Part shown: piece after piece, positions 967 to 22,971 of the stretch
Numbering within the stretch: the first letter of the stretch is position 1
How the letters are laid out: every line of letters begins with the position of its first letter
Program-made: the position numbers and the translations under genes
Notes under the pieces: model-generated
The model's input: only the letters and a program-made list of their open reading frames with translations
Told to the model about the DNA's origin: nothing
Databases searched by the model: none
Assembly (NCBI GenBank): GCA_024405255.1
Contig: JAKSOY010000044.1
Coordinates: 1 to 22,971 of the forward strand
Source: Kiritimatiellia bacterium
GTDB lineage: Bacteria > Verrucomicrobiota > Kiritimatiellia > RFP12 > UBA1067
Length of the DNA: 22,971 bases
Direction of reading: 5' to 3'

Positions 967-1808
967 GGGTTTCCGCCGAACCAACGTAGGGGGTCCCGGA
1001 ACCGGTCGAAGAACGGCGCCTGGTGGCGCGCCACGAGAACTTGCGCCTCCAGCCTCTCGCAGGTCCTTTCGATCTCGCGCGCATCAAGTGCCAGCACCGC
1101 CGTCGAAAGCGCATCGGCCACCGTCGCCGAGGACGCGCGACTCCAGCTCTGCGCCCACTTCACGGCCGCACCGCCTCGCCGCACATCACGCACATGCTCG
1201 CCCCGCAGTTCGAATCCGCTACCCGAGAGCGCCCCGCTCGAAAGACGCAACACCGTCGGCGTCTTCGTGCGGCTTTTCCACACGCCGCCCACGCCGAGCG
1301 GCCAGCCCGTCTCATCCGGCGACGGCGCACCCGACGCCAGCAGCGTCGACGTACCGCCGTTGAGGAGCCAATTCGTCAGCTCGAACTGTCCGCCACGCAG
1401 AATCTTCGCGCATTCGTCCAGCGCATAGCCCTTGCCGATGCCGCCGAAATCGAGTTTGACCGGACCCTTCTTCACACCCACGCGGAAGTGCTCGACGTCG
1501 ATCACAAGTTCGCCGAAGTTGCGCGCCTCGACCGTCGGGTCGAACGCACCGTCCGTCGCCGCGCAGATCTGCGCGCTCGCCACGAGCACATCCATCGTTT
1601 CAGGCGTCACCAGCGTGTTCGCGCCATCGGCGAGCGCCCCGATCACAGCAACGTCGCTCGTGTCGGAGAACTTCGTGAGGAGACGCTCGATCTGGTCGAT
1701 GCGCGCAAAACACGCCGCGGCGGCCGACCCGCAGAGCGCCTCGTCCTCCGTCAAACCAAAGGACACCGAAAACTCGGTGTCCATGGCTCTATAGGAAAAT
1801 GTCTTCAC
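963..1808 (-). CDS. apbE: FAD:protein FMN transferase (ApbE family)
   Basis: ApbE enzymes covalently attach FMN from FAD to threonine or serine residues of exported or membrane redox proteins such as Nqr/Rnf subunits. About 281 residues. Visible signatures are the N-terminal YRAMDTEF (family: MGTxF), KLDFGGIGKGYALDE (family: DLGGIAKGYAVD) and the C-terminal ATVADALSTAVLAL (family: ADALATA). The usual HIIDPxTG motif is degraded to HVRDVRRGG, so metal or substrate binding may differ. I choose GTG at 1808 because it overlaps the cytochrome stop as GTGA, which suggests translational coupling, and because it keeps the residues normally found before the MGT motif; ATG at 1784 is the alternative. 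It is the last gene of the argH-exbB-exbD-cytochrome operon, and its flavoprotein target is not in the window. No lipobox or clear signal peptide is seen. Confidence 0.88.
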   Translation of the reverse strand: MKTFSYRAMDTEFSVSFGLTEDEALCGSAAAACFARIDQIERLLTKFSDTSDVAVIGALADGANTLVTPETMDVLVASAQICAATDGAFDPTVEARNFGELVIDVEHFRVGVKKGPVKLDFGGIGKGYALDECAKILRGGQFELTNWLLNGGTSTLLASGAPSPDETGWPLGVGGVWKSRTKTPTVLRLSSGALSGSGFELRGEHVRDVRRGGAAVKWAQSWSRASSATVADALSTAVLALDAREIERTCERLEAQVLVARHQAPFFDRFRDPLRWFGGNP

Positions 1809-4384
1809 TTCCGCAGACGGAGAAGCTGGCACAGAACCGCGCTCGCGCAGGCGAAGCAGAGCGACACGCACCGGTGGCTCCACAACAGGATTTCCTGTCC
1901 ATGCGAGCCGAACACCGTCATCATCGGCATCACCGCCGTGAAGATCGTGCCCGCCGCGAACAGCACCCAGAACGCCCACACGACACCGCTCCAGAGCTTC
2001 GTCGTACGCTCCTTCGCACGGATCGCCATCAGCAGCACCGCGCAGCCCGCGAAGCCGCCGCCCGCCATCATGTGGCCGACAAGCACCCAGCTCGACATGC
2101 CGCCACAGAGCCAGCCGATCACGCCGCTCAGCAACAGGTAGCCGAGGCACACGATGAGGCCCATGTCCAGCACCCACTTGATGAGTCCGCCCAGGAACTC
2201 ACGCGTATTCGCCGTGAACCACTCGCCCAGACGCGTGAGGGCCACACCGGCCGCCGCCGCGAGGAAGAGGCACATCAGCGAGAAGATCGTCCACAGCGTC
2301 ACCTTCAAGAGCGGACGCATCGCAAACGTGGACCCGAGCACCGTATGGTAGCAGCTGCACACGCGCAGCAGATCCGCCTGCTTGACCACCGGACCCGACA
2401 CCTCCTGCACCGGACCCGTCGGCTTGATTTCGCCGAGGAAGAACTTCGAGTCGCCCGTATGGCAGTCGGCGCACTTGACCGGTGCCGCACCGCGCGCCTG
2501 ACGCGCCGCACGCACATCGTGCGCCAGCGGCCACGACACGGGCTGCGCCTCCGCCACACCCGCCGTCTCCACAAGCGCGCCCTTTTCGTCGAGCGAGAAC
2601 ACAAGGCCCGCCGAGAGGTAGCGCACGTCCTTGCCCGCATTCTTGAGCGCACGCGCCAGCATCTCCTTGGTGATGGGCTGTTCCTTGCCCTTCACCTTGA
2701 AATACTGTTCGATCGTCCAGCGGTCGACGAACGGAATGAACGTCTTGCCATCCGCCGAGAGGGTCCCGACGGGGAAAGGCTCGTTCGCCGGCACGGCCAC
2801 ACCCGGGCATTCTTCCACCGCTTCGCCCAAACGCCCCTTGTCATCAGCGACCTTGAGCACGAGCGTATACACCTTGCCTTCGCGCACCGCCGCAACGCGC
2901 ACCTTCGCATCGGCCGGCGTTTCGGTTCTGTCGATCTGCGCATTGTAGATCGTGATCAGGAGCTTCAGGAACTCGTCCTTGATCCGGTCGGTCGCCGTTA
3001 TGAACGGAATCTCGTTCGTGGCCGCCTGATAGACCAGCGACAAGTCCTCCTTCAGCTTCGGGACGCCGGGAAGGTTGCTCGTGTCGTCGAGCATCGCCAG
3101 CGCCGTCTCCACGCGCTTGACCACGTCGAACGCGTCGCCCGCAAGCTTCTGCGCCTCTTCCGGCGGAATCGGCTTGAGCGCGCCCTTTTCTGCGGCACGA
3201 TAGAAACCGCTCGGCCACATCATGCGGCACGGCTCGACCACGCCCTTCGCGTTCTTCACGAACACGGGCTCGACGATGTACGGACAATCCGTCGCCCACT
3301 GCGCACGGCCGTAGATGCCGATGCGGTTCGCACGCGACGTGCGCACAAGCGCCAGCTCGCCGTCCTTCGTCACGCCCGAGTGGCAGACCGTGCAGGCAAG
3401 CTTCTGGAAGTGCACGAGCGGGATGCCCGCATGCACCGGCTTCGGACCCGCGCCCTTTGCGGCCGTGTGGCAGCCCGCGCAGCTCGTCGTCGCCACCTGA
3501 TGGTCCATCCCGTTCTTGTGGCAGTCAATGCAGGAGAGTCCGTGCTTCAAGTGGACATCGCCCTCGATCGCGTGCGAGGGCACGCCCTTCTCGCTCACGC
3601 CGTGGCACGCCAGGCAGTTCTCGTTCTTCGGCTTGCCCACGTTGAACACGCAGCGGTCCTTGGTGTCAAAGCGCGACGGATCATAGATCGTCTTCTCCGG
3701 CACGCGGAAGAGATGGTCGTCGGGATTGTCCGACCCCATGGCAAGATCCCACGTCGAATTGAGACGCTCGTTCATGCCGTCGACGATCGCAAGGCCCGAG
3801 GCCGCCGTCATCGCACCGCGCCAGTTTTCACGCAGCACCTGACGCGCCCATTCGCTCGAATCGTAGCCGCTCTGCTGGTGGCACGCGAGGCAGTTCGGTT
3901 CGAGTCCGCCCGTCACGAACCAACGCTGCTTCGCGCCGTCGGCGCTCTGCATCGCGCGCGGATCATTCCCCACGCCTCCGCCCGGGAAGGAACGCCCGAA
4001 AAGCTTCGTCCACTGCCAGCACGACAAGCCCAACGCTGCCGGCGTATAGGCGCCCTGCTGGCCGTGCAGCGTCAGCGGAATCGCCGTACCCGTCTTGTCG
4101 TCCGTCCAGAACCACGGCTCGACCACCACGGAAGACTGCGCATCAGTCGCGTCAAGACCCGTGCGGAAGTGGTTGGCCCCCTTCATCGCATCGACATCGT
4201 GGCACTGGCCACACGTCTGAACCGTCGAAATCGGACGCGCCAAAGCCTGCGTCGACGACACCTTCTGTCCTTCATGGTCACGCGGTGTAAGGCGATGCAC
4301 CGGCACGGTGCGTCCGCCATTCCAATGCGATACCGCCATCACCGGCAGGCAGCTCAAAGCGACCAAATAACAAAGATTTCTCAT
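1805..4384 (-). CDS. Multihaem cytochrome c with C-terminal multi-helix membrane domain
   Basis: An 859-residue exported electron-transfer protein. A short signal peptide (about residues 1-17, hydrophobic, ending VMA) is followed by a haem domain with seven CXXCH sites: residues 58, 165, 257, 285, 302, 331 and 638. Six lie in the first 340 residues; the seventh follows a roughly 300-residue stretch with none. The C-terminus has about five hydrophobic segments (near 695-717, 737-760, 765-788, 800-825, 840-856) with histidines at 771 and 837 that could ligate a b haem. The whole looks like a quinol-linked membrane cytochrome with a periplasmic multihaem head; that role is inferred, since I do not recognise a named family. 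The SD GGAAGG lies 8-10 bases before the ATG. It sits 38 bases after exbD and overlaps apbE. Confidence 0.85.
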   Translation of the reverse strand: MRNLCYLVALSCLPVMAVSHWNGGRTVPVHRLTPRDHEGQKVSSTQALARPISTVQTCGQCHDVDAMKGANHFRTGLDATDAQSSVVVEPWFWTDDKTGTAIPLTLHGQQGAYTPAALGLSCWQWTKLFGRSFPGGGVGNDPRAMQSADGAKQRWFVTGGLEPNCLACHQQSGYDSSEWARQVLRENWRGAMTAASGLAIVDGMNERLNSTWDLAMGSDNPDDHLFRVPEKTIYDPSRFDTKDRCVFNVGKPKNENCLACHGVSEKGVPSHAIEGDVHLKHGLSCIDCHKNGMDHQVATTSCAGCHTAAKGAGPKPVHAGIPLVHFQKLACTVCHSGVTKDGELALVRTSRANRIGIYGRAQWATDCPYIVEPVFVKNAKGVVEPCRMMWPSGFYRAAEKGALKPIPPEEAQKLAGDAFDVVKRVETALAMLDDTSNLPGVPKLKEDLSLVYQAATNEIPFITATDRIKDEFLKLLITIYNAQIDRTETPADAKVRVAAVREGKVYTLVLKVADDKGRLGEAVEECPGVAVPANEPFPVGTLSADGKTFIPFVDRWTIEQYFKVKGKEQPITKEMLARALKNAGKDVRYLSAGLVFSLDEKGALVETAGVAEAQPVSWPLAHDVRAARQARGAAPVKCADCHTGDSKFFLGEIKPTGPVQEVSGPVVKQADLLRVCSCYHTVLGSTFAMRPLLKVTLWTIFSLMCLFLAAAAGVALTRLGEWFTANTREFLGGLIKWVLDMGLIVCLGYLLLSGVIGWLCGGMSSWVLVGHMMAGGGFAGCAVLLMAIRAKERTTKLWSGVVWAFWVLFAAGTIFTAVMPMMTVFGSHGQEILLWSHRCVSLCFACASAVLCQLLRLRK

Positions 4385-4422
4385 TATCTTTTCCTTCCCC
4401 GAAATCGGCTAGATTAACAAAC

Positions 4423-4842: not shown

Positions 4843-5474
4843 TAGAACGCCTTTTCAAGAATGACGGCCAGCGTCTCGAGTCCCGCAATGCGCTTCGCCG
4901 TACGACGGCGCAGCACCGCGTGGAAGAAGAGGCACGGAATGGAAATCGCCAAGCCGAACACCGTCGTGATGATGGCCTGCGACACGCCCTGCGCCAACAC
5001 GACCGGACGCGCATTCGCCGCGAGGTCGCTCGCAATGCCGCCAAACGCCTGGAACATGCCGAGCACCGTACCCAGAAGACCCACAAGCGGCGCGATGGCC
5101 GCGATATCCGCCAGCCAGTCGACGGACGCCTGAAGCTGTTCGGCCACGTGCGCACCGGCCGTTTCAACAGCCGACGTGACGTTCGCCCGCTGCCCCGCCG
5201 GCGTCCGCTGCACCACGTCGAGCGCGGCCAGCGCGATGGACGCGAACGCGCACGGACGGCGCTCGCACAGACGACGCGCCTCGCCATGGTCGCCCGTCTG
5301 CAGCTTGCTGAACACGTCGCTCAGCAGCGGACGCGGCGCAAGGGCGCCCCGACGCTGCGCGAACAGAAGATAGAGGACGACGGCGAACGCAAGCACCGAC
5401 AACCCCGCCAGCACCCACATCAGGTAGCCGCCGTATTGCCACGCCTGCAACAAAGTAATTCCCGTTTCTGACAT
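4842..5474 (-). CDS. exbB: MotA/TolQ/ExbB proton channel family protein
   Basis: A 210-residue ExbB/TolQ-type inner-membrane channel subunit that works with the ExbD encoded next. Three membrane spans are visible: about residues 15-37, 118-145 and 160-185. Between the first and second is a cytoplasmic region of short helices. The conserved family core is present (IAAIAPLVGLLGTVLGMFQAF, then AQGVSQAIITTVFGLAISIP). A purine-rich SD (AGAAGGGAAA on the minus strand) lies in the 21-base gap after argH. The pair argH-exbB has no obvious metabolic logic; co-transcription with a respiratory cytochrome is noted as a finding. Confidence 0.93.
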   Translation of the reverse strand: MSETGITLLQAWQYGGYLMWVLAGLSVLAFAVVLYLLFAQRRGALAPRPLLSDVFSKLQTGDHGEARRLCERRPCAFASIALAALDVVQRTPAGQRANVTSAVETAGAHVAEQLQASVDWLADIAAIAPLVGLLGTVLGMFQAFGGIASDLAANARPVVLAQGVSQAIITTVFGLAISIPCLFFHAVLRRRTAKRIAGLETLAVILEKAF

Positions 5475-5495
5475 AATGATTTCGTTTCCCTTCTA

Positions 5496-6845
5496 TTAAC
5501 TGAACAATTTCTGAAGCTTGGCCTCGAACGCCGTCTTGCGTTCATCCATCAACCCGAGCCAGGCCTGAATGCGCTTGGCATAGAGCGCATAGTCGAGACC
5601 CGCCGTCGCACCCGCATGCGTCTTCGCCGCCACGGCCGCATCCGCATCTTCGCTCGCAAGCGCCTCGAGGTTGTCGCGCACCTGATGGTACGCTTCGCGC
5701 CACGGCGTGCCGGCGGCGACTTTGCGCAGCGCCACGTCCGTCGCGAACACGCCCGGGATGAAGCCCGCACGCAACTTCGCTTCGTCCACACCCATTCCGC
5801 GTACGAACTTCGCGAGAATGCGCAACGTCGTGCGCGTGATCGCCAGCCCCTTCATGTAGAGGCCCTTGCAGTCCTGAAGGTCGCGGTTGTAGCCGCCCGG
5901 CATCGCATGCAGCATCGACAGGGACGCCGTTGCAAGTCCCAGCACCTGCGCCGTCTTCGAACGCACCAGTTCGAGCACGTCGGGATTGTACTTCTGCGGC
6001 ATGATCGAACTGCCCGTGCAGTAGGCGCGCGGCAGGGTGAAGTAGCCGAACTCCGGCATCGAAAAGAGGATCATGTCTTCGGCGAGACGCGACAGCACCG
6101 CCATCAGCTGCGCGAGCGCGCACAGGAGCGACGCTTCGTCTTCGCCACGGCCCATCGACGCGCCGAACACATTGTGGAGCGGACGCGCAAACCCGAGCAG
6201 ATCGCTCGTACGCTGCCGGTCGAGCGGCAACGGCACGCCATAGCCGGCGGCGCTGCCGAGCGGACACGCATCGTTCATCTTGTAGGCGGCTTCGAGATTC
6301 GCCGTCTGATCGAGAATCATCTCGGCATGTCCCGTCGCCCACACGCCCACGGAACTCGGCATCGCCGGCTGCAGATGGGTCCGACCCACCATCGGCACGC
6401 GGTCGTGCGCCTGGCCGAACGCCACAAGCGCCGTCGCGAGGTCGCCGAGCTCGGTCCCCAGGCCCAGCAGCTGGTCCTTGATGTGCAGACGCACATCGAC
6501 CGCCACCTGGTCGTTGCGGCTGCGGCCCGTATGGATCTTCTTGCCGAGATCGCCCAGCGTCTCCGTCAGGCGCGTCTCCACGGCCATGTGCACATCCTGG
6601 TCCTGCTCGCGCACCACAAAGGTCTCGTCCGCCACCACATTCGCCAGCGCGGCCCGCACACGCGTCGCCTCGTCCTTCGTCACCACGGGCGGCTCGACGG
6701 GCATCTCCGAAAGCATCGTCACATGGGCCGCCGTTCCAAGGCAGTCCCAACGCACGAGATCCATGTCCAAAACGGGATCGTCGCCCACCGTATAGTCCAG
6801 CACGTCAGGATCGACGTCGCCGGTTATTGTCTTTTCCGTTTTCAT
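5496..6845 (-). CDS. argH: Argininosuccinate lyase
   Basis: Catalyses the last step of arginine synthesis, argininosuccinate to arginine plus fumarate, as a cytosolic homotetramer of the fumarase/aspartase superfamily. At 449 residues it is slightly short. The superfamily signature GSSIMPQKYNPDV is at residues 268-280, HTGRSRNDQ at 95-103 and GRTHLQPA at 144-151. The N-terminus lacks the usual WGGRF segment and starts directly at the helical domain, which makes this a divergent member. The ATG overlaps the stop of the upstream gene as ATGA. No other arginine genes are in the window. Confidence 0.93.
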   Translation of the reverse strand: MKTEKTITGDVDPDVLDYTVGDDPVLDMDLVRWDCLGTAAHVTMLSEMPVEPPVVTKDEATRVRAALANVVADETFVVREQDQDVHMAVETRLTETLGDLGKKIHTGRSRNDQVAVDVRLHIKDQLLGLGTELGDLATALVAFGQAHDRVPMVGRTHLQPAMPSSVGVWATGHAEMILDQTANLEAAYKMNDACPLGSAAGYGVPLPLDRQRTSDLLGFARPLHNVFGASMGRGEDEASLLCALAQLMAVLSRLAEDMILFSMPEFGYFTLPRAYCTGSSIMPQKYNPDVLELVRSKTAQVLGLATASLSMLHAMPGGYNRDLQDCKGLYMKGLAITRTTLRILAKFVRGMGVDEAKLRAGFIPGVFATDVALRKVAAGTPWREAYHQVRDNLEALASEDADAAVAAKTHAGATAGLDYALYAKRIQAWLGLMDERKTAFEAKLQKLFS

Positions 6846-8316: not shown

Positions 8317-8664
8317 TTAGGCCTTCTTCGCGATTTCGACGATCTGCTTGAAGCCCTCCGGATCGTGGATCGCGATCTCGCTGAGCATCTTGCGGTTCAG
8401 CGTGACGCCGGCCTTGAGCAGACCCGCGATGAACGCGCTGTAGCTCATGCCTTCCGCACGGGTCGCGGCGTTGATACGGGCGATCCAGAGATGACGGAAA
8501 TCACGCTTCTTCAGCTTGCGGTGGATCGTGGCCAGGCGCTGGGCGCGGTCAACGGCTTCCGTCGCAGTGCGGAAGAGTTTGGAACGACCACCACGGAAAC
8601 CCTTCGCAAGTTCCAGGCGGCGACGACGACGTTCACGGGAAGCAGGTGCGTTAGTAGCTCGCAT
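8317..8664 (-). CDS. rplT: 50S ribosomal protein L20
   Basis: 115 residues, the normal length. L20 binds 23S rRNA early in large-subunit assembly. Recognised from the very basic N-terminus with [25 protein letters not shown], the central [18 protein letters not shown] and the C-terminal [25 protein letters not shown]. It follows rpmI by 13 bases with an SD (GGAGGAA on the minus strand) in the gap. In many bacteria L20 represses its own operon through the leader; nothing here proves that. Confidence 0.97.
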
Positions 8665-11745: not shown

Positions 11746-14078
11746 GAAAGGTTCTGGGCGTCGACATCGAAGACGAGACGAAGCTCCTTCGGTGCAGGAC
11801 GCTCGGACTCGATCCACTTCACCGCCGAGACGATATCCTTTGTCGACGGCGCCCGAACGACAACCTGGTAGCGGAACCAGCCCTCGGCTTTGAGCAGCGG
11901 CGCTTCGGCCGCTTCCGAGACGCGAAAGAGGTCCTGTTGGCGCGCCGTGTTGAATTGCTTCGCCCACGAGGTGAGCGACTTCGCATAGAGGTCCGCCCAG
12001 CTGGACGCGACCTCTTCGACTTTGGAACGAAAGACGAGTGTCGCCAAACGGCAATAGGGCGGCAGGTAGGCCTCTTTGCGCGCCGCGAGTTCCTGTGCCG
12101 CAAACGCGGTAAAGCCCTTGTCGGACGCCGCCGCCGCAATCGCAGGTGCATCCGGCGCGAACGTCTGCAGATAGACTTCGCCCGGTTTTTCGGCACGCCC
12201 CGCACGACCGCTCACCTGCGCAAGCAATTGGTACGTCCGTTCGCTCGCGCGCGGATCGGGACGATGCAAAGACGTGTCGGCATTGAGAACCCCGACGAGG
12301 GTCACATTCGGGAAGTCGAGCCCCTTCGCAATCATCTGCGTTCCCAAGAGTACGTCGGCGCGGCCCGCACGGAAAGTCGAGAGAATGTCGTCATGCGAAA
12401 ACTTGCGCGAAGTCGAGTCCGCATCCATCCGCAATACGCGCGCATGGGGGAAACACCGCTGGAGCGCAGCCTCCGCCCGTTGCGTGCCAATGCCCGTGTA
12501 GTTGAATTCGCGGTTCTTGCAATCCGGACAGGCCGACGGCAGATGGGTCCAACCGCCGCACACGTGGCACCGCAGACAATGATCGGCCTGATGGTAGGTA
12601 TAGGGAACGGAACAATCCGGACACTCCGCGACCCACCCGCAGTCGGGACATTCCAGCACACGCGAATAGCCACGCCGGTTGAGAAAGAGAATCGTCTGTT
12701 CGCCGCGCTCGAGGCGCAGATGGAGTGCATCCAGAAGCGGTTGCGAGAAGATGGGCGGATGCCCCGTTTTCTCGGACTCCTGCTCCATATTGATCAAATG
12801 GACTTGAGGAAGCGCGCGCCCCGCGACACGATTCGGCACCGAGGCGAGCACGTATTTTCCCGTCTGCGCATTGAGCCAGGATTCCAACGACGGCGTGGCG
12901 CTGCCCAATACGGCACCTGCCCCTTCGAACTGCGCCCGCACGACGGCCACATCGCGTGCGTGGTAGCGCGGTGTTTCGTCCTGCTTGTACGAAGGATCGT
13001 GTTCTTCGTCCACCACAATGAGCCCCAAGTTCCGCACGGGCGCAAAGACGGCACTGCGCGGCCCCACCACGACACGCGCTTCACCCGTGCGGATCCGGTG
13101 CCATTCATCGTAGCGCTCGCCATCCGAAAGCGCCGAATGCAGCACCGCCACCTGTTCGCCGAAACGCGCCGCGAACCGGCGAACCGTCTGCGGCGTCAGC
13201 GAAATCTCCGGCACGAGGACGATGGCGCCTTGTCCGCGTTCCAATACGCGCGCGATCGCCTGCAGATAGATTTCCGTTTTACCCGAACCCGTGACACCAT
13301 GCAGCAGCACGGGCTTCGTCGCGGAAGAAATGATGTCCAACGCCTGCTGCTGCTGGGGATTCAGCGCGAGGGGCTTCGACGGCATCACACGCCGTCCCGC
13401 CAATGGATCGCGCCGCGAGACTCGTGGCGCAATCGCCACTACGCCCTTCTCCGCCAACGACTTCAGCGTTGCGGGCGACGTCTTGAATTCATGCACCAGC
13501 TGCTGCAGCCAACCGCCCCCCACACGCTGGATTTCCTTCAACAGTTCAGCCTGATGCGGCGTGAGCTTGACAGGGGTCTGTCCCCTTTTGTCCTCGGGGG
13601 ACTGTCCCCCTGCCGATTTCTTGGGGGGCTGTCCCCCTTCACCCGTAACGGGTTCGACATAGAGCAGCTCTTTGGGCTTGATGCTCGGCTTGAGCACGGC
13701 CGCCGGCAATGCCGCCTTCAGCGTCGTTTCAATCGGCGAATGCGTGTAGTGCGCGATCCACTTCACGAGCTTGAGAAGCGTCGGCGAAAAGAACGGCGAT
13801 TCATCCTCGATCGCCAGAATCGGCTTCAGCGTGAAAGCCTTCTCCGCCGGCTTCGACAAAGGCTGTCCAAACAAATCGCGCGGTTCGTCATTCTGCGCAG
13901 ACGCGGGAACCGCACGCTCAGCCTCGTCCTTGATCGCGAGCGCAAAGCCACGCGCAATGCGCCCCCCAAATGGAACACGAAGAAGCTGCCCAACGAGCAG
14001 CTTCTTCGCGAGGTTGTCCGGCACCGAATAGCTGAAGAGCCGATCCAGTGCCAGATCGATGGCAACCGAGACAATCAA
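11742..14078 (-). CDS. priA: Primosomal protein N', replication restart helicase PriA
   Basis: 778 residues. PriA recognises stalled forks and reloads the replicative helicase. Domains in order: the N-terminal 3'-DNA-binding domain (IVSVAIDLALDRLFSYSVP), a winged-helix region, helicase Walker A (GVTGSGKTEIYLQ, near residue 260), DEEHDPSYKQ with the PriA aromatic loop region (RYHARDVAV), GSATPSLES, a cysteine-rich zinc-binding domain (CPDCGWVAECPDC, then LRCHVCGG and CPDC), GTQMIAKGLDFPNVTLVGV and QVSGRAGRAEKPG. The start is TTG, directly abutting the pseudopilin TAA; the family N-terminus supports it. A linker of about 25 residues near 145-170, rich in G, P, Q and K, is encoded by the repeated palindromes listed separately. 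Confidence 0.96.
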   Translation of the reverse strand: MIVSVAIDLALDRLFSYSVPDNLAKKLLVGQLLRVPFGGRIARGFALAIKDEAERAVPASAQNDEPRDLFGQPLSKPAEKAFTLKPILAIEDESPFFSPTLLKLVKWIAHYTHSPIETTLKAALPAAVLKPSIKPKELLYVEPVTGEGGQPPKKSAGGQSPEDKRGQTPVKLTPHQAELLKEIQRVGGGWLQQLVHEFKTSPATLKSLAEKGVVAIAPRVSRRDPLAGRRVMPSKPLALNPQQQQALDIISSATKPVLLHGVTGSGKTEIYLQAIARVLERGQGAIVLVPEISLTPQTVRRFAARFGEQVAVLHSALSDGERYDEWHRIRTGEARVVVGPRSAVFAPVRNLGLIVVDEEHDPSYKQDETPRYHARDVAVVRAQFEGAGAVLGSATPSLESWLNAQTGKYVLASVPNRVAGRALPQVHLINMEQESEKTGHPPIFSQPLLDALHLRLERGEQTILFLNRRGYSRVLECPDCGWVAECPDCSVPYTYHQADHCLRCHVCGGWTHLPSACPDCKNREFNYTGIGTQRAEAALQRCFPHARVLRMDADSTSRKFSHDDILSTFRAGRADVLLGTQMIAKGLDFPNVTLVGVLNADTSLHRPDPRASERTYQLLAQVSGRAGRAEKPGEVYLQTFAPDAPAIAAAASDKGFTAFAAQELAARKEAYLPPYCRLATLVFRSKVEEVASSWADLYAKSLTSWAKQFNTARQQDLFRVSEAAEAPLLKAEGWFRYQVVVRAPSTKDIVSAVKWIESERPAPKELRLVFDVDAQNLS
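13573..13637. repeat. Three GGGGNCTGTCCCC palindromes inside priA
   Basis: Imperfect palindromes GGGGTCTGTCCCC (13573-13585), GGGGACTGTCCCC (13597-13609) and a G/C-extended GGGGCTGTCCCC type (13624-13637), about 24-28 bases apart, all within the priA reading frame. They encode a low-complexity linker and do not break the frame. Confidence 0.85.
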
Positions 14079-15027: not shown

Positions 15028-15029
15028 AA

Positions 15030-15088
15030 TGGTTGTGGGAGGTGGATTCGAACCACCGAAGGTGTGAACCAGCAGATTTACAGTCTGT
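15030..15088 (-). pseudogene. Displaced 3' portion of tRNA-Tyr(GTA): left attachment site
   Basis: Read on the minus strand this is the 3' part of a class II tRNA. It has the anticodon arm with loop CTGTAAA (anticodon GTA at 15081-15079), a long variable arm (15058-15071), a T-arm with perfect GGTGG/CCACC stem and TTCGAAT loop (15041-15057), a 3' acceptor strand TCCCACA, discriminator A and encoded CCA (15032-15030). The D-arm and 5' acceptor strand are absent: bases beyond 15088 do not match, and the first anticodon-stem pair is already mismatched (A-C). This is the expected scar of integration by a tyrosine recombinase into the anticodon region, with the integrase gene 160 bases away. Confidence 0.85.
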
Positions 15089-15249: not shown

Positions 15250-16650
15250 ATGGCAAGGGAACAAGGCAAGCGGGCGCGGTCGAACGGCGCGAACGGGAAG
15301 CGAAGGCAGAACGGCACGGGGACAATCGAACGGCGCGGGGATAGGTGGCTGGCCCGGTGGACGGTGCGCAACCCGCAGGGGGCAATCGTGCGCCGTTCCG
15401 AGACGATACGCCCGAACGAGGAATTGGATAGCGGTATACCGCACCCCGTTGGATCGGTGGATTGGGCGCGCGCCCGTCTGCGGGTACTGACCGAGGGGAA
15501 CGCCCTTTTGACGCAGGAACGAGAACTGAAAAAGACCGCCGAGCGGCTGGCGGGCGTGAAGGCCGAACTTGCGCGGATAGAGGACGAGAAACCCGCCCTT
15601 GCCCTTGCGGACGGATTCGAAGCATACCGCGCCAGCCGTGAACGGCCCGACACGGGCGCAGCAACAATGGATATGTACGAAAGCCAGTACACGCGGCTTG
15701 TCCGCTGGGTGGCGGCGAACGCGCCCGAAGTGGTGGAAATGCGCCACTTGACACGGGCGACCGCCGAGCGGTTCATGGACTATCTAGCCGGGGAACTTTC
15801 AACGAACTCATACAACAAGTATCTCACCCTCTTCACGCGGGTTTGGAAGGTGTTGGAAGAGACGGCACGAATCACGGCTAACCCTTGGGAGAAGATACGC
15901 CCGAAGTCTGTACAATCCTTCACGCGGCGGGAATTAACGATTGAGGAACTACGCCGCGTGTGCGGATCGGTAGAAGGTGAAATGCGCACCCTCTTCGCAA
16001 TCGGCATTTACACGGGCTTGCGGCTGGGCGACTGCGCCCTGCTGGACTGGGGCGCGGTGGACATTGTGCGCGGCATGATCTCCACCATTCCACACAAGAC
16101 GGCGCGCCACGCCCACGGCAAGCCCGTGGTGATTCCCCTGCACCCTGCGCTTGCGACCATTCTTTCGGAAACCCCAACGGAAGCCCGCACGGGTTTCGTG
16201 GTGCCTGGCATTGCGGAAAAATATCGGCGTGATTCGGCATCCGTCACGGACACCATTCAACGGATTTTTGCAGGGTGCGACATCCGAACCACGGAGAAGG
16301 ACGAGACGGACAAGCGGGCCCGCGTGATTGTGGGCTTTCATAGCCTGCGCCATACATTCGTTTCAATGGCCGCGAACGCGGGCGCGCCGCTGGCATTGAT
16401 TCAATCCATTGTAGGGCATAGCAACCCGACAATGACGCGGCACTATTACCATGAAAGCGAAACGGCACTTAAAAACGCCGTTGCCGCCCTGCCCGATGTG
16501 AACGGGGACAATGCGCCAACCGATGAAGCGGCAACCATGCCGGGCGTTCCCTGCGCGTTCTGCGCCGCGCTGGACGAAATGACACGCGAACAACTGGAGG
16601 CGGCGAAAGCGGAGATCGAAAAGCGGCTTGCGTCTTTCGGGCCGATGTGA
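15250..16650 (+). CDS. int: Tyrosine recombinase / site-specific integrase
   Basis: 466 residues. It catalyses integration and excision of the element at tRNA-Tyr. A very basic N-terminus (residues 1-50, with a DRWLARWTVRNPQG strand likely to bind arm sites) leads into a charged helical stretch (about 75-115) and a SAM-like core-binding domain (about 118-205). The catalytic domain shows R258 (TGLRLGD), H364-x-x-R367 (HSLRHTF), H390 (GHSNPTMT) and the nucleophile Y399 in RHYYH, so all the key residues are present. A C-terminal extension beyond the catalytic tyrosine carries CAFC and a final coiled-coil-like helix (REQLEAAKAEIEKRL). The gene reads inward from the attachment site with its own promoter and SD. 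Confidence 0.96.
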   Translation: MAREQGKRARSNGANGKRRQNGTGTIERRGDRWLARWTVRNPQGAIVRRSETIRPNEELDSGIPHPVGSVDWARARLRVLTEGNALLTQERELKKTAERLAGVKAELARIEDEKPALALADGFEAYRASRERPDTGAATMDMYESQYTRLVRWVAANAPEVVEMRHLTRATAERFMDYLAGELSTNSYNKYLTLFTRVWKVLEETARITANPWEKIRPKSVQSFTRRELTIEELRRVCGSVEGEMRTLFAIGIYTGLRLGDCALLDWGAVDIVRGMISTIPHKTARHAHGKPVVIPLHPALATILSETPTEARTGFVVPGIAEKYRRDSASVTDTIQRIFAGCDIRTTEKDETDKRARVIVGFHSLRHTFVSMAANAGAPLALIQSIVGHSNPTMTRHYYHESETALKNAVAALPDVNGDNAPTDEAATMPGVPCAFCAALDEMTREQLEAAKAEIEKRLASFGPM

Positions 16651-16813: not shown

Positions 16814-17215
16814 ATGAACGGAAACAAGACGGGCCGCGCCACCCTCAACGGCGTACACGGACACACCTCGGCAAGCGGAATCACCTACACGGAAACCGCC
16901 AGCTCCGCCACGATCACGATTGCGGGAACGGCATTTGACAACCTACGGAAAATCGCCAGCGCGATGAACGCCGTCGAATGGACGGACGGCGACAACGATG
17001 CGCACCAGGTGCTTGACGAATTTCTTCTGGGTGTGTTCATTGACAACCTTGCAAGTCCCGTGAAAGAGTACAAGGGAATCACAATGGGCGGCGTAAGGGA
17101 ATCGGTAGACATGATCCTTCAAAGTGTAGACACGGGGTTTGAACCCGACACGCCCGAACACAAAGCCCGCGTGAACGCGCTTCGGGATGAATTCATTAAG
17201 TTCGGGGTTTACTGA
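16814..17215 (+). CDS. Hypothetical protein, mobile element
   Basis: 133 residues with no family I recognise. The N-terminus is rich in Thr, Ser and Gly (ITYTETASSATITIAG, likely beta strands). The C-terminal two thirds is acidic and helical (DNLRKIASAMNAVEW, DDNDAHQVLDEF-type spacing, TPEHKARVNALRDEFIKFG). No membrane segment or cysteine. The start is supported by the purine-rich GGAAGTAAGAAG just upstream, although its spacing of only two to four bases is short. It sits between int and a 299-residue orphan and ends 81 bases before that gene. Confidence 0.6.
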   Translation: MNGNKTGRATLNGVHGHTSASGITYTETASSATITIAGTAFDNLRKIASAMNAVEWTDGDNDAHQVLDEFLLGVFIDNLASPVKEYKGITMGGVRESVDMILQSVDTGFEPDTPEHKARVNALRDEFIKFGVY

Positions 17216-17246
17216 CAGACCCGCGCGGGCGTGAACAAACCAAACG

Positions 17247-17278
17247 GGCGGCGCGAGGACGGAAAACCCCGCGCCGCC
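17247..17278 (+). promoter_or_regulatory. Leader hairpin before the gene at 17297
   Basis: A perfect 9-bp stem GGCGGCGCG/CGCGCCGCC with a 14-base loop, placed just before the SD AAAGGGG (17284-17290). It could control translation of the following gene or protect the mRNA end. Confidence 0.5.
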
Positions 17279-17296
17279 ACTTCAAAGGGGCGACGA

Positions 17297-18196
17297 ATGA
17301 AAAAGCAAAAAACAAATGCGATGAATCCAACACTTGCCGACGAGCTGGATCAGGCGAAAAGCCACTATTCTAAATCACTTGCCGATGTTGACTTTCTGCG
17401 CGTTGAACTCGGGCTGACCGAAAGCGCAATCCGCCGCCAGCTCGACAACTACACCGCGCCGCCAACACCGATTGGAGAACTCGTCACGGAGCAAGGCCGC
17501 ACCGTGCGCGGTGCGCTGGTTGCGTTCTGCGACTTCTTAAAACGCATGGAACGCAATCTGTCTTACAACGATACGGAGCGGGGCGACTGCCTTTTTTATT
17601 GGTACCTTGTCGCACCGCTCATTTGCGAATATCTTAAACGGCGCGGGGCGGCAAGCGACACAACCGCCCGTCTTGCCGGGCTTGTCACGGAAGCGAAGCC
17701 AAAGCCGACCAGCAAGGGCGATGCGTCCTCTGCTGGCAATCCGTTTGCCATGGCTTGTGGCGTACTCGATTTTGAAAAAGCGGTTTTGGCTGCGGTTGAT
17801 TCGGACACAACACAAGTGGGCGCACCCCGTGAAGGGGGCGGCGCAACGGCGAAACGGGGACGGAAGATCACGGGCGAACCCCTGCGGCAGAACGGGCAAA
17901 TCATCGAGCCGAAAGGGATGCGTGAAAATGGCGACGTCTGGAACGGCCAAAGGAAACCTATCAAATGTGAAGTCGGCAGATTAGTAATCGGGAAGGATGT
18001 CTACCCCGTCCCCTTTTCTCTTCGAGGTTTCGTGTCCGACCTCTTGACGGCATACGAAAACGGGGGGTGGGTGAGAACCAATAAAAAGAGATGGCAAAAC
18101 AACTGCCGTGGAAAATCGGCATCTTTGTTAAACATCATCGAAGGGAGAAAGATTAGCCACACTTTCACGGGCGAATATCGGTTATGGGTGTTATGA
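17297..18196 (+). CDS. Hypothetical protein, possible DNA-binding regulator or replication accessory protein
   Basis: 299 residues from ATG 17297. I prefer this over the GTG at 17231, which would translate the hairpin above; AAAGGGG lies six bases before the ATG. The N-terminal half (residues 1-135) is helical (LADELDQAKSHYSKSLADVDFLRVELGLTESAIRRQLDNY, a conserved-looking CDFLKRMERN). The middle (150-225) is low complexity with a basic patch (AKRGRKITGEP). The last 75 residues read like a compact folded domain (YPVPFSLRGFVSDLLTAYENGGWV, then KRWQNNCRGKSASLLNIIEG), possibly a winged helix. No family is recognised. It ends directly at a cluster of CATAACGCC repeats, which it might bind; that link is inferred from position only. 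Confidence 0.7.
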   Translation: MKKQKTNAMNPTLADELDQAKSHYSKSLADVDFLRVELGLTESAIRRQLDNYTAPPTPIGELVTEQGRTVRGALVAFCDFLKRMERNLSYNDTERGDCLFYWYLVAPLICEYLKRRGAASDTTARLAGLVTEAKPKPTSKGDASSAGNPFAMACGVLDFEKAVLAAVDSDTTQVGAPREGGGATAKRGRKITGEPLRQNGQIIEPKGMRENGDVWNGQRKPIKCEVGRLVIGKDVYPVPFSLRGFVSDLLTAYENGGWVRTNKKRWQNNCRGKSASLLNIIEGRKISHTFTGEYRLWVL

Positions 18197-18308: not shown

Positions 18309-18413
18309 TTTTTTCCTTGTCTGCTAAATGCTTTAATAGCCCCGTCTTTTGCGGGCGGTATGCACCAACGCACCCCGCCGAAGCAAGGGGCAAACATTCA
18401 AGGAACAAACAAA

Positions 18414-18758
18414 ATGTGCATGAAGTCCACCGAGACCGCCGTCAAGGCCATTGTCGCCGCCGACCCGTCCGTCACCGCCGAAATGGCAAAAGCGGCACTT
18501 GCCGCGCTCAACGGTGAAACTGCCGCCGCCGTCACCGACCAAACGCCGATTGACCGCGCCTTGACCCCGAAGCAGGTTGCGGGGATTTTGGGCGTGAGTC
18601 GTAAGACCGTGACCGCATACGGACGGAAGGGCCTTATTCAAGGAATCGGGAGCAAGGACAAGCGCGGGGCAATCCGCTACTACGCCGCGTCAAGTGTCCG
18701 CGCGTTCCTGGCTGGCGGCAACACGAACGAAAGCAAGGGGGCCAGCGATGCGATGTGA
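18414..18758 (+). CDS. Helix-turn-helix protein, excisionase/MerR-type
   Basis: 114 residues. The C-terminal half carries a MerR/excisionase-type helix-turn-helix: LTPKQVAGILGVSRKTVTAYGRKGLIQGIGS followed by RYYAASSVRAFLAG, the usual winged-helix layout of small recombination directionality factors. The N-terminal half (TETAVKAIVAADPSVTAEMAKAALAAL) is a short alanine-rich helical region that may dimerise. The start at 18414 has AAGGAA at 18400-18405; an upstream in-frame ATG at 18360 lacks an SD. It probably acts as a directionality factor for the integrase or as a repressor. The next gene overlaps its end by 11 bases. Confidence 0.8.
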   Translation: MCMKSTETAVKAIVAADPSVTAEMAKAALAALNGETAAAVTDQTPIDRALTPKQVAGILGVSRKTVTAYGRKGLIQGIGSKDKRGAIRYYAASSVRAFLAGGNTNESKGASDAM

Positions 18759-19049: not shown

Positions 19050-21878
19050 ATGGATATTATATCAGACTCGCCCGACGAGTGCGAGACCCTTTTCGGCGGA
19101 AATCTCGCGGAGCCGCAGGAACCCGCGCAACCCACGCCGCAGGAGCCGGAACTGCAGCCAAAGCCAAAGCCGCAGGAGCCGCCGCGTACTATCACGAAGG
19201 TTGACCCGAAGGCCGCTATGACCGTGTTGAAACAGATCGTCGCGCAGGATGAACGCAACAGCGTACACTATGACTTCAACGAGGTGAAGCGCGCCGTAGG
19301 CGTTAGCGTGTATCTCAACGAGCGCGGAATACCGATGAAAGGCAACCGCTTCAATGCGACATGGCGCGGAGGTGAACGCTTCTCTTGCTCGATTAGTGAA
19401 GATGATAGGTCGTGGTACGACCATGTAGAAAAGGCTGGTGCGTCTGTCCTTGATCTCGCAATGCGTGTCGAAGGATTCCCCACGGTAAGACGAGCCGCTT
19501 ACGAGCTTGGCCAGCGGTTCAACGTCACGCCGAAAAAATTGACTGGAGCGAAGAAGGACTATGGAAAAGAAGTCGCTCATTACGATTATGTTGACGCTAA
19601 CGGAGTGCCGCTTTACGCGGTGATTCGATACGATCCGAAGAAGTTTGTACAACGCCGACTCGACCAGCAGGGACGGCGTGTTAAAGGAAGTCTTGAAAAC
19701 ATTCAGCGCGTCCCCTACCACCTTCCCGAACTTATCGCGGAGGTGCGCAAGCCGTCCGAGCAGCAGGTCCCGATATTCCTCACCGAAGGCGAAAAGGACG
19801 CGGACAACCTTCGCGCCCTAGGTCTTGTTGCGACGAGCGCGGCGATGGGCGCAGGGAATTGGAAGGAGCAGACGTATCACTATTCGCAATGGTTCAAAGG
19901 CGCGAGGCGCGTTCTCATCGTTGCCGACCGCGACCCTGCGACAGACGAGAAAGGGAATAGGCACTACAAGGGCCAGTATCACGCCACCGAGGTACAAGCG
20001 GCACTTGCGAACATCGGCGTTGATGCCGCCGTCGCCTATGTCGGCGAGGGCAAGGACGCGTCCGACTGGATAGCCGCCCTTCATTCCGTAGGCGCGGACG
20101 ATGCGACAATCAGACAGAAGTTCATCGACCTTGCGGAGAATACGCCGCAGTGGGAATGGACGGAGCCGCCGGAAGCCATAGAACCTACACCAGCGCAAGC
20201 GGAGAGGCAACCAACGCCGCCGCGATTCGGCACAATCACCGCGACGGGCGACACCGATTTTCCAAGCGTCGTTGGAGGCGTTAATGTCTGCCGGGAGTTC
20301 TACACATTCAAAGTCGATGCGTCCAAACCCATGTACGATTCGATTGTGGATGCAACTGCGGAAGTGGCTAGAAAGTACACAGAATCGCAGATCAAGAGCA
20401 GGGGCGACAACGCATTGAAACCGCTGGGGAAAGCCGACGTTGAATCCGTGCGCCAGCTTGCGGTAGTCATGTGGCTGCGTTCGTGCGGACAGTTCTACCG
20501 CAATGCAGAAACGCGGAGCATTGCCGATCTTTTATACTTCAACCGCAGAAGCGGGCGACTTCTCCGCATGGCCTCGGACGAGTTCAACGCGTGGTTGTCA
20601 AACAATGCCCGGGTAAACCGCGCAGACAAATCTTTCGGCCAGCTTGTCGCGTTCGTGGAGGACGCGGCGATGGACCCGGACATTTCGCAGGATGTCGTGC
20701 CTCAGGCGTTCGTGGCAAGGACGGACGAGGCGGTCTACATCAGTTGCGGAGAATCGAAGATGGTGCGGCTGAAAGGTGGGCGCATTGAAACCGTCGCCAA
20801 CGGAACGGACGGCGTTCTATTTCCCTGCGAGTGGACGCTTAAGGATTGGAATCTTCTATCATCTGACGCGAAGGTTTCCGACCCGTTCGATTCCGCCGAG
20901 CAGTTCGAGGGGCTTTCATTCAACACATGGTACGGGCGGTATCTTCTCCGGGCGTGGTATCTCAACCTCTTCGCGCACCACCGAAACCGCACACCGCTTC
21001 TGCTTGCAGGAGAACGCGGCTCCGGCAAAACTTCGGTTGCGAGGGCTTTGCGGGAAATGGCCGGTTATCCTATCCGTGAAGCTGGCATCGACCCCAAGAA
21101 GGAGGAGGATTTTTGGGTTGCGGCCAACGGGCGCGGACTACTGCTTTTCGACAACGTGGAGGAAGAAGCGCAGAGCGCGAAATGGCTCACAACCGCCATC
21201 GAGAAGGTCACGACAGGCGGCGCGAAGGAGGTCCGAAAACTTTACACGCAGACCACAACATCATATCGCGCGTTGTCCGATCTTGTGTTCGCCTCCAAGA
21301 CCCCTTCCTACTGCAAAAACGAAGGGGTTGCACATCGGTTCGTGATCGTCAATCTCAACGCAGGAATAGGAGAATTCAAAGGCGACGAGCTGTTGAAGGA
21401 AATAGCCGACCGACGCGACGAGTTCATGACATGGACAGCGCGGACGGTTGCGGCGGCGATGGAGGCAAACATCGACATTCCCGACGCGGTGAATGAACGC
21501 TATCCCGACTTCGGCAGATTCGCGCTTAGGTGCGCACACGTCCTTGGGGATTACGACAACACGCTGAAAGCCCTTCAATGCGGAGAGCTGGAGAAGTCTG
21601 TCATAGTGCTTAAGCGCGACGGACTTGCAAGCGAGATATTCGACTTCCTATCCGAGCGCGACGGGAATTGGGAGGGGCGCATGACGGACATTGCAAGGAC
21701 TGTACACGCAGGAGAGCAAGACGAGATACTTAACCGAATCGGGCTACGCTATGCAAAGACCATCAACCGACTGCGCCGACCGTTCGAGGCGTGTTTCAAA
21801 TCGGTGTCAACGCGAATATCAGCAGGAATAACCTTTTATCGGTTTGGCGGTTTGAACGACCTGCTAAAGACTCCATAA
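19050..21878 (+). CDS. TOPRIM primase fused to a superfamily 3-like helicase (element replication protein)
   Basis: 942 residues. An acidic proline-rich N-terminus (20-46) is followed by a region resembling the CHC2-type primase fold without the zinc cysteines (SVLDLAMRVEGFPTVRRAAYELG, 131-154). A TOPRIM domain follows, with IFLTEGEKDADNLRALG (E246, E248) and VLIVADRDPATD (D293, D295), the metal-binding acids for primer synthesis. A linker and a helical region (about 395-620) lead into an ATPase with Walker A LLAGERGSGKTS (K660, T661) and Walker B GLLLFDNVEE (D701), then FASKTPSYCKNEGVAHRFVIVNL as a sensor segment. The C-terminal 150 residues may bind the origin. This layout is that of phage and satellite primase-helicases such as P4 alpha. 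An iteron origin lies 10 bases after the stop. The SD is AGGAGG at nine bases. Confidence 0.88.
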   Translation: MDIISDSPDECETLFGGNLAEPQEPAQPTPQEPELQPKPKPQEPPRTITKVDPKAAMTVLKQIVAQDERNSVHYDFNEVKRAVGVSVYLNERGIPMKGNRFNATWRGGERFSCSISEDDRSWYDHVEKAGASVLDLAMRVEGFPTVRRAAYELGQRFNVTPKKLTGAKKDYGKEVAHYDYVDANGVPLYAVIRYDPKKFVQRRLDQQGRRVKGSLENIQRVPYHLPELIAEVRKPSEQQVPIFLTEGEKDADNLRALGLVATSAAMGAGNWKEQTYHYSQWFKGARRVLIVADRDPATDEKGNRHYKGQYHATEVQAALANIGVDAAVAYVGEGKDASDWIAALHSVGADDATIRQKFIDLAENTPQWEWTEPPEAIEPTPAQAERQPTPPRFGTITATGDTDFPSVVGGVNVCREFYTFKVDASKPMYDSIVDATAEVARKYTESQIKSRGDNALKPLGKADVESVRQLAVVMWLRSCGQFYRNAETRSIADLLYFNRRSGRLLRMASDEFNAWLSNNARVNRADKSFGQLVAFVEDAAMDPDISQDVVPQAFVARTDEAVYISCGESKMVRLKGGRIETVANGTDGVLFPCEWTLKDWNLLSSDAKVSDPFDSAEQFEGLSFNTWYGRYLLRAWYLNLFAHHRNRTPLLLAGERGSGKTSVARALREMAGYPIREAGIDPKKEEDFWVAANGRGLLLFDNVEEEAQSAKWLTTAIEKVTTGGAKEVRKLYTQTTTSYRALSDLVFASKTPSYCKNEGVAHRFVIVNLNAGIGEFKGDELLKEIADRRDEFMTWTARTVAAAMEANIDIPDAVNERYPDFGRFALRCAHVLGDYDNTLKALQCGELEKSVIVLKRDGLASEIFDFLSERDGNWEGRMTDIARTVHAGEQDEILNRIGLRYAKTINRLRRPFEACFKSVSTRISAGITFYRFGGLNDLLKTP

Positions 21879-21887
21879 CTCGGTAGT

Positions 21888-21992
21888 TGGTGGGCTTGGT
21901 GGGCTTCGACCCCGTTTCTATGTAAGTTTTTTATAAAAAATTTCTCTATAGGGATTTTTAAAACGGGGGGTCGAAGCCCACCAAGCCCACCA
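21888..21992. other. Candidate replication origin: paired iterons around an AT-rich core
   Basis: The left arm holds two tandem 9-bp iterons GGTGGGCTT (21889-21897, 21898-21906) followed by CGACCCCGTTT. The right arm (21961-21992) is the mirror image, with two iterons in inverse orientation (21974-21982, 21983-21991) and only two extra bases. Between them are 43 bases that are strongly AT-rich with A and T runs (21918-21960). It starts 10 bases after the primase-helicase stop. Iterons flanking an AT-rich segment just downstream of the replicase is the arrangement of the SaPI origin. A long hairpin terminator is the alternative. Confidence 0.6.
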
Positions 21993-22035: not shown

Positions 22036-22290
22036 ATGATCGACACCACCGAAACCCCGCCTTGCCCCGTGTGCGGCGGGCCGTCCGAACCCGCGCGCCG
22101 TTCCGACTTCGCCTTGCTGGCCTTCGGGCTGATCGTCCACAGCCGCCGTTGCACGAACTGCGGCCACCGATTCCAAGCCGCGCGGGGAATGACTGCCGAC
22201 GAGCGCGACCGCGCACGTTCTGGACGATTCGCCAGGACGGAAGCCACCGACCCCGCGCCGCCCTGCTCGGACGGCTGGGACTTTCTGTAA
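22036..22290 (+). CDS. Small zinc-ribbon protein
   Basis: 84 residues. Two CxxC knuckles, CPVCGG (residues 10-15) and CTNCGH (near 41-46), form a zinc ribbon with a hydrophobic linker (FALLAFGLIVHSRR) between them. The C-terminal half is polar and probably unstructured. Similar ribbons occur in many small phage proteins and transcription regulators; the specific role is unknown. The SD AAAGGAGA (22025-22032) gives the start at 22036, not the upstream ATG. Confidence 0.75.
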   Translation: MIDTTETPPCPVCGGPSEPARRSDFALLAFGLIVHSRRCTNCGHRFQAARGMTADERDRARSGRFARTEATDPAPPCSDGWDFL

Positions 22291-22757: not shown

Positions 22758-22971
22758 CGGCGCGCGGCTGGCGTGACGGGTGGTGTGCTGGGTGTAGGGG
22801 GGGGATTCCTCCGCATGGGGATAGACCCCGCCACGGGGTGACGCGGCCAAAGCCCCCATCCCCCGCCACGGGGGCGACCCCTCGAACGTGGGCGCACCCC
22901 CTCTATAGAGTTCCTAGGCCCCCCGCCTACGTACCCATGGCCCCCCTATACCCGCGCGGGGGTGGGTGGGG
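22758..22971. other. GC-rich non-coding end of the window with clustered palindromes
   Basis: No gene with an SD is seen. CCCCGCCACGGGG occurs at 22826-22838 and again, extended by one base on each side, at 22860-22874. The last 71 bases hold five perfect palindromes: CTCTATAGAG (22901-22910), CCTAGG (22913-22918), TACGTA (22928-22933), CCATGG (22935-22940) and CCCGCGCGGG (22951-22960), separated by C or G runs. Confidence 0.6.

Follow-up and report, generated by a model that had tools for sequence, protein, structure and literature searches.

What does the perfect inverted repeat that stands directly behind a primase-helicase gene do in contig JAKSOY010000044.1 of a Kiritimatiellia bacterium? 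The window, by which we mean the whole stretch of 22,971 bases that was analysed, carries in its right part (15.03-22.97 kb) the left end of an integrated element, and the repeat lies within that element. We found that relatives of the element keep a layout of four short repeats at this place while the letters of the repeats change. For this reason the 105-bp site is, with high probability on comparative sequence grounds, the place where an integrated mobile element, either a phage or a phage satellite, begins its replication. The features on which the argument turns are these:

21888..21992, no strand: proposed origin of replication, two 26-bp arms in perfect inverted repeat that enclose 53 AT-rich bases
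21889..21906, plus strand: left iteron pair, GGTGGGCTT twice (21889-21897 and 21898-21906)
21974..21991, minus strand: right iteron pair, inverted (21974-21982 and 21983-21991)
21914..21929, plus strand: left copy of an inner core (family consensus GgGccgTTTTccaaAAAcTCc), placed by family information content
21951..21964, minus strand: right copy of the inner core, inverted, placed in the same way
19050..21878, plus strand: primase-helicase of 942 aa, with toprim at about 170-345, AAA+ of superfamily 3 (SF3)-like type at about 620-800 and a winged helix at about 858-933
21621..21848, plus strand: predicted C-terminal winged helix (codons 858-933), in the model of the order helix-strand-helix-helix-strand-strand

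The nine-base unit GGTGGGCTT is repeated in tandem in each arm, with the right arm inverted; in the whole window the unit has two copies, at 21889 and 21898, and its complement two, at 21974 and 21983, with none elsewhere. The arms (21888-21913 and 21967-21992) are complementary at 26 of 26 positions with 53 nt between them. A sequence-only reading of the window had already described two iterons per side in opposite orientation, and both their positions and the complementarity of the arms were borne out. Three of its measurements are revised here: the perfect symmetry extends over 26 nt, in place of a near-perfect 30; the inner repeats are 67 bases apart (64% AT) and the perfect arms 53 (77% AT), in place of 43 enclosed AT-rich bases; and the left arm begins 9 bases, not 10, after the primase-helicase stop at 21878. 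A pattern of two plus two nine-base repeats arose by chance in one of 2,500 segments, each of about 1 kb, that were simulated with a Markov model.

Relatives were reached by using a host gene as a bridge into genomes of the same class, where profile A1 had a match in 45 of 345 genomes; in a phylum-wide draw, profile A4 had a match in 78 of 387, many of them short and N-terminal. The family considered here comprises 25 loci: the window, 20 that cover the helicase part (19 long and one C-terminal fragment, G171) and four later additions. It omits L238 (a second contig with the same module as L151), L236 (a 58-position match) and the matches of 31-47 positions in G007, G478, G194:C61 and G379. 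When the downstream sequence alone was inspected, inverted repeats with other letters were seen in some loci and none in others, a view that missed loci because in many of them the module precedes the stop. A strict detector, requiring two 9-bp tandem repeats and an inverted copy 20-150 nt apart, recovered the window and 17 of 20 relatives on its first pass, and 20 of the 25 family loci, the window among them, carry the strict layout at the helicase gene's 3' end. Four more have weaker or 8-bp forms: a weak TATAAGGTT form at the stop in L154, 8-bp spacing on one side or both in L160 and L166 (judged partly by eye, and in L160 by eye) and 8-bp repeats GCGGCTTT in L221. The last, L223, has a weak candidate at best. 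The sequence-only reading had named relatives that keep the replicase and lack iterons as the finding that would count against it, and the origin reading withstands that comparison. Repeat letters vary between loci while the arms remain complementary, and the distance between arms in the best match per locus is 64-69 nt in 19 of the 20 strict loci; the exception is L169, at 53 (or 64 when read in the alternative register), and L158 has an additional match of lower quality at 148. Elsewhere in the 380 kb of family loci there were three strict matches, two of them in L165. Twelve of 470 other open reading frames (ORFs) had a strict match near their end, eight of these being the helicase module reached from another ORF and the other four amounting to two sites (L161:3541-3653 and L165:1744-1851).

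The position of the module is informative about the level at which it is maintained. Only five of 24 aligned modules lie past the stop (the window, L153, L154, L158 and L162); the other 19 begin inside the reading frame, 34-343 nt before the stop, with that of L221 running over the gene end. Because the site starts within the gene in differing reading frames, selection acts on the DNA; one and the same GGTGG-type repeat encodes V-G-L in L150 and G-G-F in L167, so that neither protein nor terminator explains it. In all modules but one of the 24, the arms are complementary at 13-18 of their 18 positions (12 of 18 in the exception, L154), and the left arms have a lag-9 identity of 0.79, as against 0.24-0.43 at other lags from 4 to 14. 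Inside the arms, each half contains a core with the consensus GgGccgTTTTccaaAAAcTCc that carries 10.2 bits, compared with 4.6 +/- 0.2 (maximum 5.1) in 50 shuffles, a statistic computed from 39 non-redundant members of 48 half-sites; the window fits this consensus loosely.

The same layout was found among viral contigs and named replicons. Profile A4 picked out 28 relatives in IMG/VR, and in 13 of these the strict layout lies near the 3' end. Thirteen IMG/VR contigs with the exact 19-mer TGGTGGGCTTGGTGGGCTT were dropped, as no inverted partner was seen by eye and they resemble repeated coding sequence. In a search of viral contigs with A1, the matches of the best 80 of 539 relatives fell in the primase half of the query, no further than residue 529; A3 found no relative among viral contigs, and a pattern search of genome contigs with A1 gave 142 pattern matches and no relative. 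Some primase relatives carry repeats of their own: behind a different primase-helicase, with only the primase part in common with the window, L184:9004-9246 contains several sets of the 9-bp repeat GGTGGACAC, and L227, L228, L229 and L234, whose helicase halves are of other kinds, carry inverted pairs of 9-bp repeats at the 3' end of the gene or past it (CCCCCGATG, CGGACGGTT, CGGACGCTT and TGCTCCAGG). Nine of 12 named replicons have the strict layout 54-469 nt past the primase stop, namely pRN1, pRN2, pHEN7, the mycobacteriophages Urkel, Yuna and Strobilo (near neighbours in the search results), Acinetobacter phage 4316, Bordetella phage BPP-1 and a Pediococcus plasmid; it is absent from pDL10, Pseudomonas phage MR14 and pHTUR06. 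Five of the twelve (pRN1, pRN2, pHEN7, pDL10 and BPP-1) were not independent choices, as both the pRN family and the BPP-1 group are treated in the pRN1 paper, and without these five the count is five of seven.

The best Protein Data Bank (PDB) match of the helicase model is the SaPI5 primase-helicase, and in its predicted fold the protein is an initiator of the SaPI Rep type with a C-terminal DNA-binding domain; a sequence search of the PDB with query A1 gave no match at E 1. Toprim_3 falls below the cut-off in the window protein and is present in four of five members, and the model has the T7 primase fold. On the strength of the model, the winged helix at 858-933 is the likely repeat-binding domain. 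Were the site to act as an origin, the winged helix would bind the repeats, and two helicase rings would assemble face to face across the inner segment, the two repeat pairs being about eight helical turns apart. The rings would then melt that segment, the toprim domain would prime both strands, and host polymerase would extend them after the element had left the tRNA-Tyr gene.

Several results weigh against this interpretation or narrow it. L223 offers no more than a weak 8-bp candidate, 179 nt past the stop, and the inner segment is just 44-58% AT in 13 of the 18 modules measured. A strict match away from its place proves little, since control host contigs gave five in 345 kb, in three contigs. 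Fifteen of the 28 IMG/VR contigs are without a strict match (L242, L246 and L256 have 8-bp or weaker forms and the rest little or nothing), and that set is partly close kin of the first, L244 and L245 carrying the repeats of L150. Among the best 80 of the 539 primase-part viral relatives, 74 with at least 200 nt past the stop were scanned from 300 nt before to 700 nt after it, and nine had the strict layout, a number equalled by strict matches elsewhere in the 80 loci; the layout may therefore be tied to the type of helicase. The covariation of the iterons with the C-terminus of the replicase that the sequence-only reading had proposed as a check is there in part. Over 22 of 24 loci (L169 and L154 omitted) repeat letters correlate with the winged helix (Mantel r 0.47) and with the presumed recognition stretch (0.44), and also with toprim, which scores higher (0.52), AAA+ (0.40), helix 805-857 (0.32) and the middle of the protein (0.27). 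The expected specificity for the C-terminus was not borne out, and correlation with the whole replicase points to co-inheritance and is no proof of contact.

Of the other explanations, the one that fares best is that the hairpin itself is recognised, as a cruciform or single-strand initiation signal, and not the repeats. It draws on pRN1, for which the published account proposes protein assembly at a stem-loop whose stem must be intact (PMC4234260). The arms of the family are often imperfect (12-18 of 18), yet the nine-base repetition persists in them (lag-9 0.79), and we consider recognition of the hairpin unlikely. A much smaller chance attaches to an operator, at which the repeats would bind the element's own or another regulator for control of copy number or expression and not for origin firing. 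Iterons often act in both capacities, and L165 has a second module some 6.5-6.7 kb from the first; against this, the site lies 3' of the gene or inside its end (19 of 24), not at a promoter, and the pRN1 site with the same layout is described as required for replication in the relevant part of its report (PMC4234260). Marginally less probable again is a transcription terminator or other RNA hairpin ending the primase-helicase message. The site is directly behind the gene and a 141-nt stretch folds strongly as RNA (-73.2 kcal/mol, z -8.5, equalled by none of 200 shuffles), but neither strand has a run of T after the stem, 19 of 24 modules start inside the reading frame, 34-343 nt ahead of its stop, and a terminator needs neither 9-bp tandem repeats nor a fixed distance of 64-69 nt. 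A terminator scan did not list the site, whose loop in any case exceeds the limit of 8 set in that scan, and an Rfam scan of the window found no family at gathering score. The ends of a small transposon or miniature inverted-repeat transposable element, or an attachment site, would account for a perfect 26-bp inverted repeat and have next to no probability: a conserved place with unconserved letters (the same gene end in 20 of 25 loci) refutes the transposon, and attL lies elsewhere, in tRNA-Tyr (15028-15087).

An origin of this kind is already known from the phage-inducible chromosomal islands (PICI) and Staphylococcus aureus pathogenicity islands (SaPI), from P4 and from pRN1. In PICI/SaPI, two iteron sets surround a central segment directly 3' of rep, according to the passages on these origins in PMC7581432 and PMC6092414, so that the parallel drawn in the sequence-only reading holds in print as well as in the predicted fold. 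The window resembles them in iterons that flank a centre 3' of rep, in the order int, excisionase-like gene, pri-rep, ori, and in the SaPI5 match of its helicase. It differs in its toprim primase of T7-like fold, where SaPI5 and SaPIbov1 have an archaeo-eukaryotic primase (AEP) in the account given in part of PMC7581432, and also in its host phylum, in having two 9-bp repeats per side and in the prophages among its module-bearing relatives. P4, whose alpha primase is termed Toprim-type in a passage of PMC4234260, has origin repeats directly behind the primase-helicase gene, the type-1 repeats starting with GGTG and two of them standing 9 bp apart. The window likewise has GGTG-type repeats directly behind the gene, though their orientation to the centre is opposite; P4 crr also has five annotated repeats per 120-bp copy, two copies and a separate ori. 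P4 alpha gave no significant match to the window helicase (BLASTP E 1.6; profile probability 46, toprim part only). In the staphylococcal cassette chromosome mec (SCCmec), the C-terminal domain of the initiator helicase Cch2 binds direct repeats downstream of its operon, as a section of PMC7581432 has it; an initiator helicase with repeats downstream (a putative origin) is common to both systems, but there the repeats are three AAGTG units and the inverted repeats are dispensable for binding (PMC7581432, same section).

The comparison with pRN1 reaches furthest. There a stem-loop of about 100 nt, 54 bp past orf904, is required for replication, and the origin, in the words devoted to it in PMC4234260, lacks iteron structure; the mechanism of the stem-loop origin is disputed in print. 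We found 9-bp repeats in the pRN1 stem, 7 of 9 positions identical in each arm. The window, too, has an inverted-repeat site of about 100 nt 3' of a gene for a primase, SF3 helicase and winged helix, with sequence free and structure kept, and the stems of pRN1 and BPP-1 are also 9-bp repeats with an inner distance of 64 nt; the primase there is an AEP (prim-pol), and that of the window is toprim. These likenesses suggest, with about even odds in our judgement, that a single origin plan, with two 9-bp repeats on either side in inverted orientation and some 58-92 nt between the sides, serves replicons with a primase and SF3 helicase in bacteria and archaea alike. On that view the 'stem-loops' of pRN1 and BPP-1 would not differ in kind from the mycobacteriophage, Pediococcus plasmid and Kiritimatiellae origins, and the pRN1 stem would work as two pairs of repeats bound by protein and not as an extruded hairpin. 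What is new, so far as we have seen, is the lineage, the toprim version, the strict plan of two plus two 9-bp repeats with near-constant distance and inner core, the place inside the gene and the link to pRN1-type stem-loops; no statement of the shared nine-base layout or of its link to pRN1 was found in searches confined to an open-licence library.

The element to which the site belongs begins in a tRNA gene and continues beyond the contig:

15028..15087, minus strand: attL, the 3' part of a tRNA-Tyr gene, with homology to the intact gene stopping at the anticodon stem
15250..16650, plus strand: tyrosine integrase (PF00589, E 1.4e-17; phrog_1, E 1.2e-40)
16814..17215, plus strand: small protein, function unassigned, an ORF with no family match
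17231..18196, plus strand: protein, function unassigned, an ORF with no family match
18360..18758, plus strand: helix-turn-helix protein, excisionase-like (PF12728, E 3.9e-7; phrog_66, excisionase and transcriptional regulator, E 1.3e-6)
22036..22290, plus strand: small zinc-ribbon protein 3' of the origin (PF09723, E 1.1e-4; PF14354 (Lar), E 4.4e-4; both below the curated cut-off)

The relative G001:C40 (L276) has an intact tRNA-Tyr (GTA) in the syntenic position, to which the attL segment is identical at 56 of 61 positions with one gap. From attL the genes run integrase, two unassigned genes, the helix-turn-helix gene (which we take to be AlpA-like), a small ORF and the primase-helicase, an order shared with PICI. 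The contig ends 979 bases past the hairpin and the right end of the element is off it; two ORFs tested between the site and the contig end had no terminase family match. That end (22760-22971) is G+C-rich, with C and G runs and repeated CCCCGCCACGGGG, and may have broken the assembly. Host genes make up the left flank, among them an 859-aa multiheme gene that is 75% identical to one in isolate RUG14841 (RUG presumably standing for rumen) and 65-70% identical to several Kiritimatiellae records, the nearest host records being metagenome-assembled genomes. Long open frames at 1799-4417 and 1023-2141, both on the plus strand (872 and 372 aa), lie antisense to the multiheme and flanking host genes and are probably a by-product of high G+C coding.

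Elements of more than one kind carry the module. Prophages are among them: the large terminase starts within about 1.3 kb past the helicase in L150, L153, L156, L157 and L158, and a portal or head-tail connector is present in L150, L153, L157 and L158. L165 is a phage with a family-A polymerase and a 2013-aa RNA-polymerase-like protein, and it holds the same origin module (GCGGTGATT repeats) twice, at 1744-1851 and 8479-8581, a pair that recalls the ori and crr of P4. L162:285-6539 is a complete element of 6.2 kb between 43-bp perfect repeats (285-327 and 6497-6539, half of a tRNA-Arg), with an integrase, an HTH_17 gene, an unassigned 317-aa gene, an SF3-like helicase, the origin module (5055-5157), a second HTH_17 gene and an array of 10-bp TCACGG repeats (5483-5572). 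No structural gene was recognised between its end repeats, and it is a candidate minimal replicating satellite. As this complete small element has a similar gene order, a PICI-like satellite is a plausible identity for the window element. A repeat search for attR in L163, L181, L153, L158 and L222 gave no flanking att pair. On L180, a contig with an integrase 45% identical to that of the window, seven copies of a 155-nt repeat, mostly 69 nt apart and 60-76% alike, occupy 12087-13216.

These findings provide a testable origin for phages and satellites from a gut lineage that is poorly cultured, and a simple rule for locating origins in unannotated elements: the 3' end of a primase-helicase gene is the place to look for an inverted arrangement with two 9-bp repeats on each side. 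They also offer an alternative reading of the pRN1 stem-loop origin, in which each side of the stem is made up of two 9-bp iterons. Since 19 of 24 modules have the start of the site within the helicase gene, the gene would carry its origin with it.
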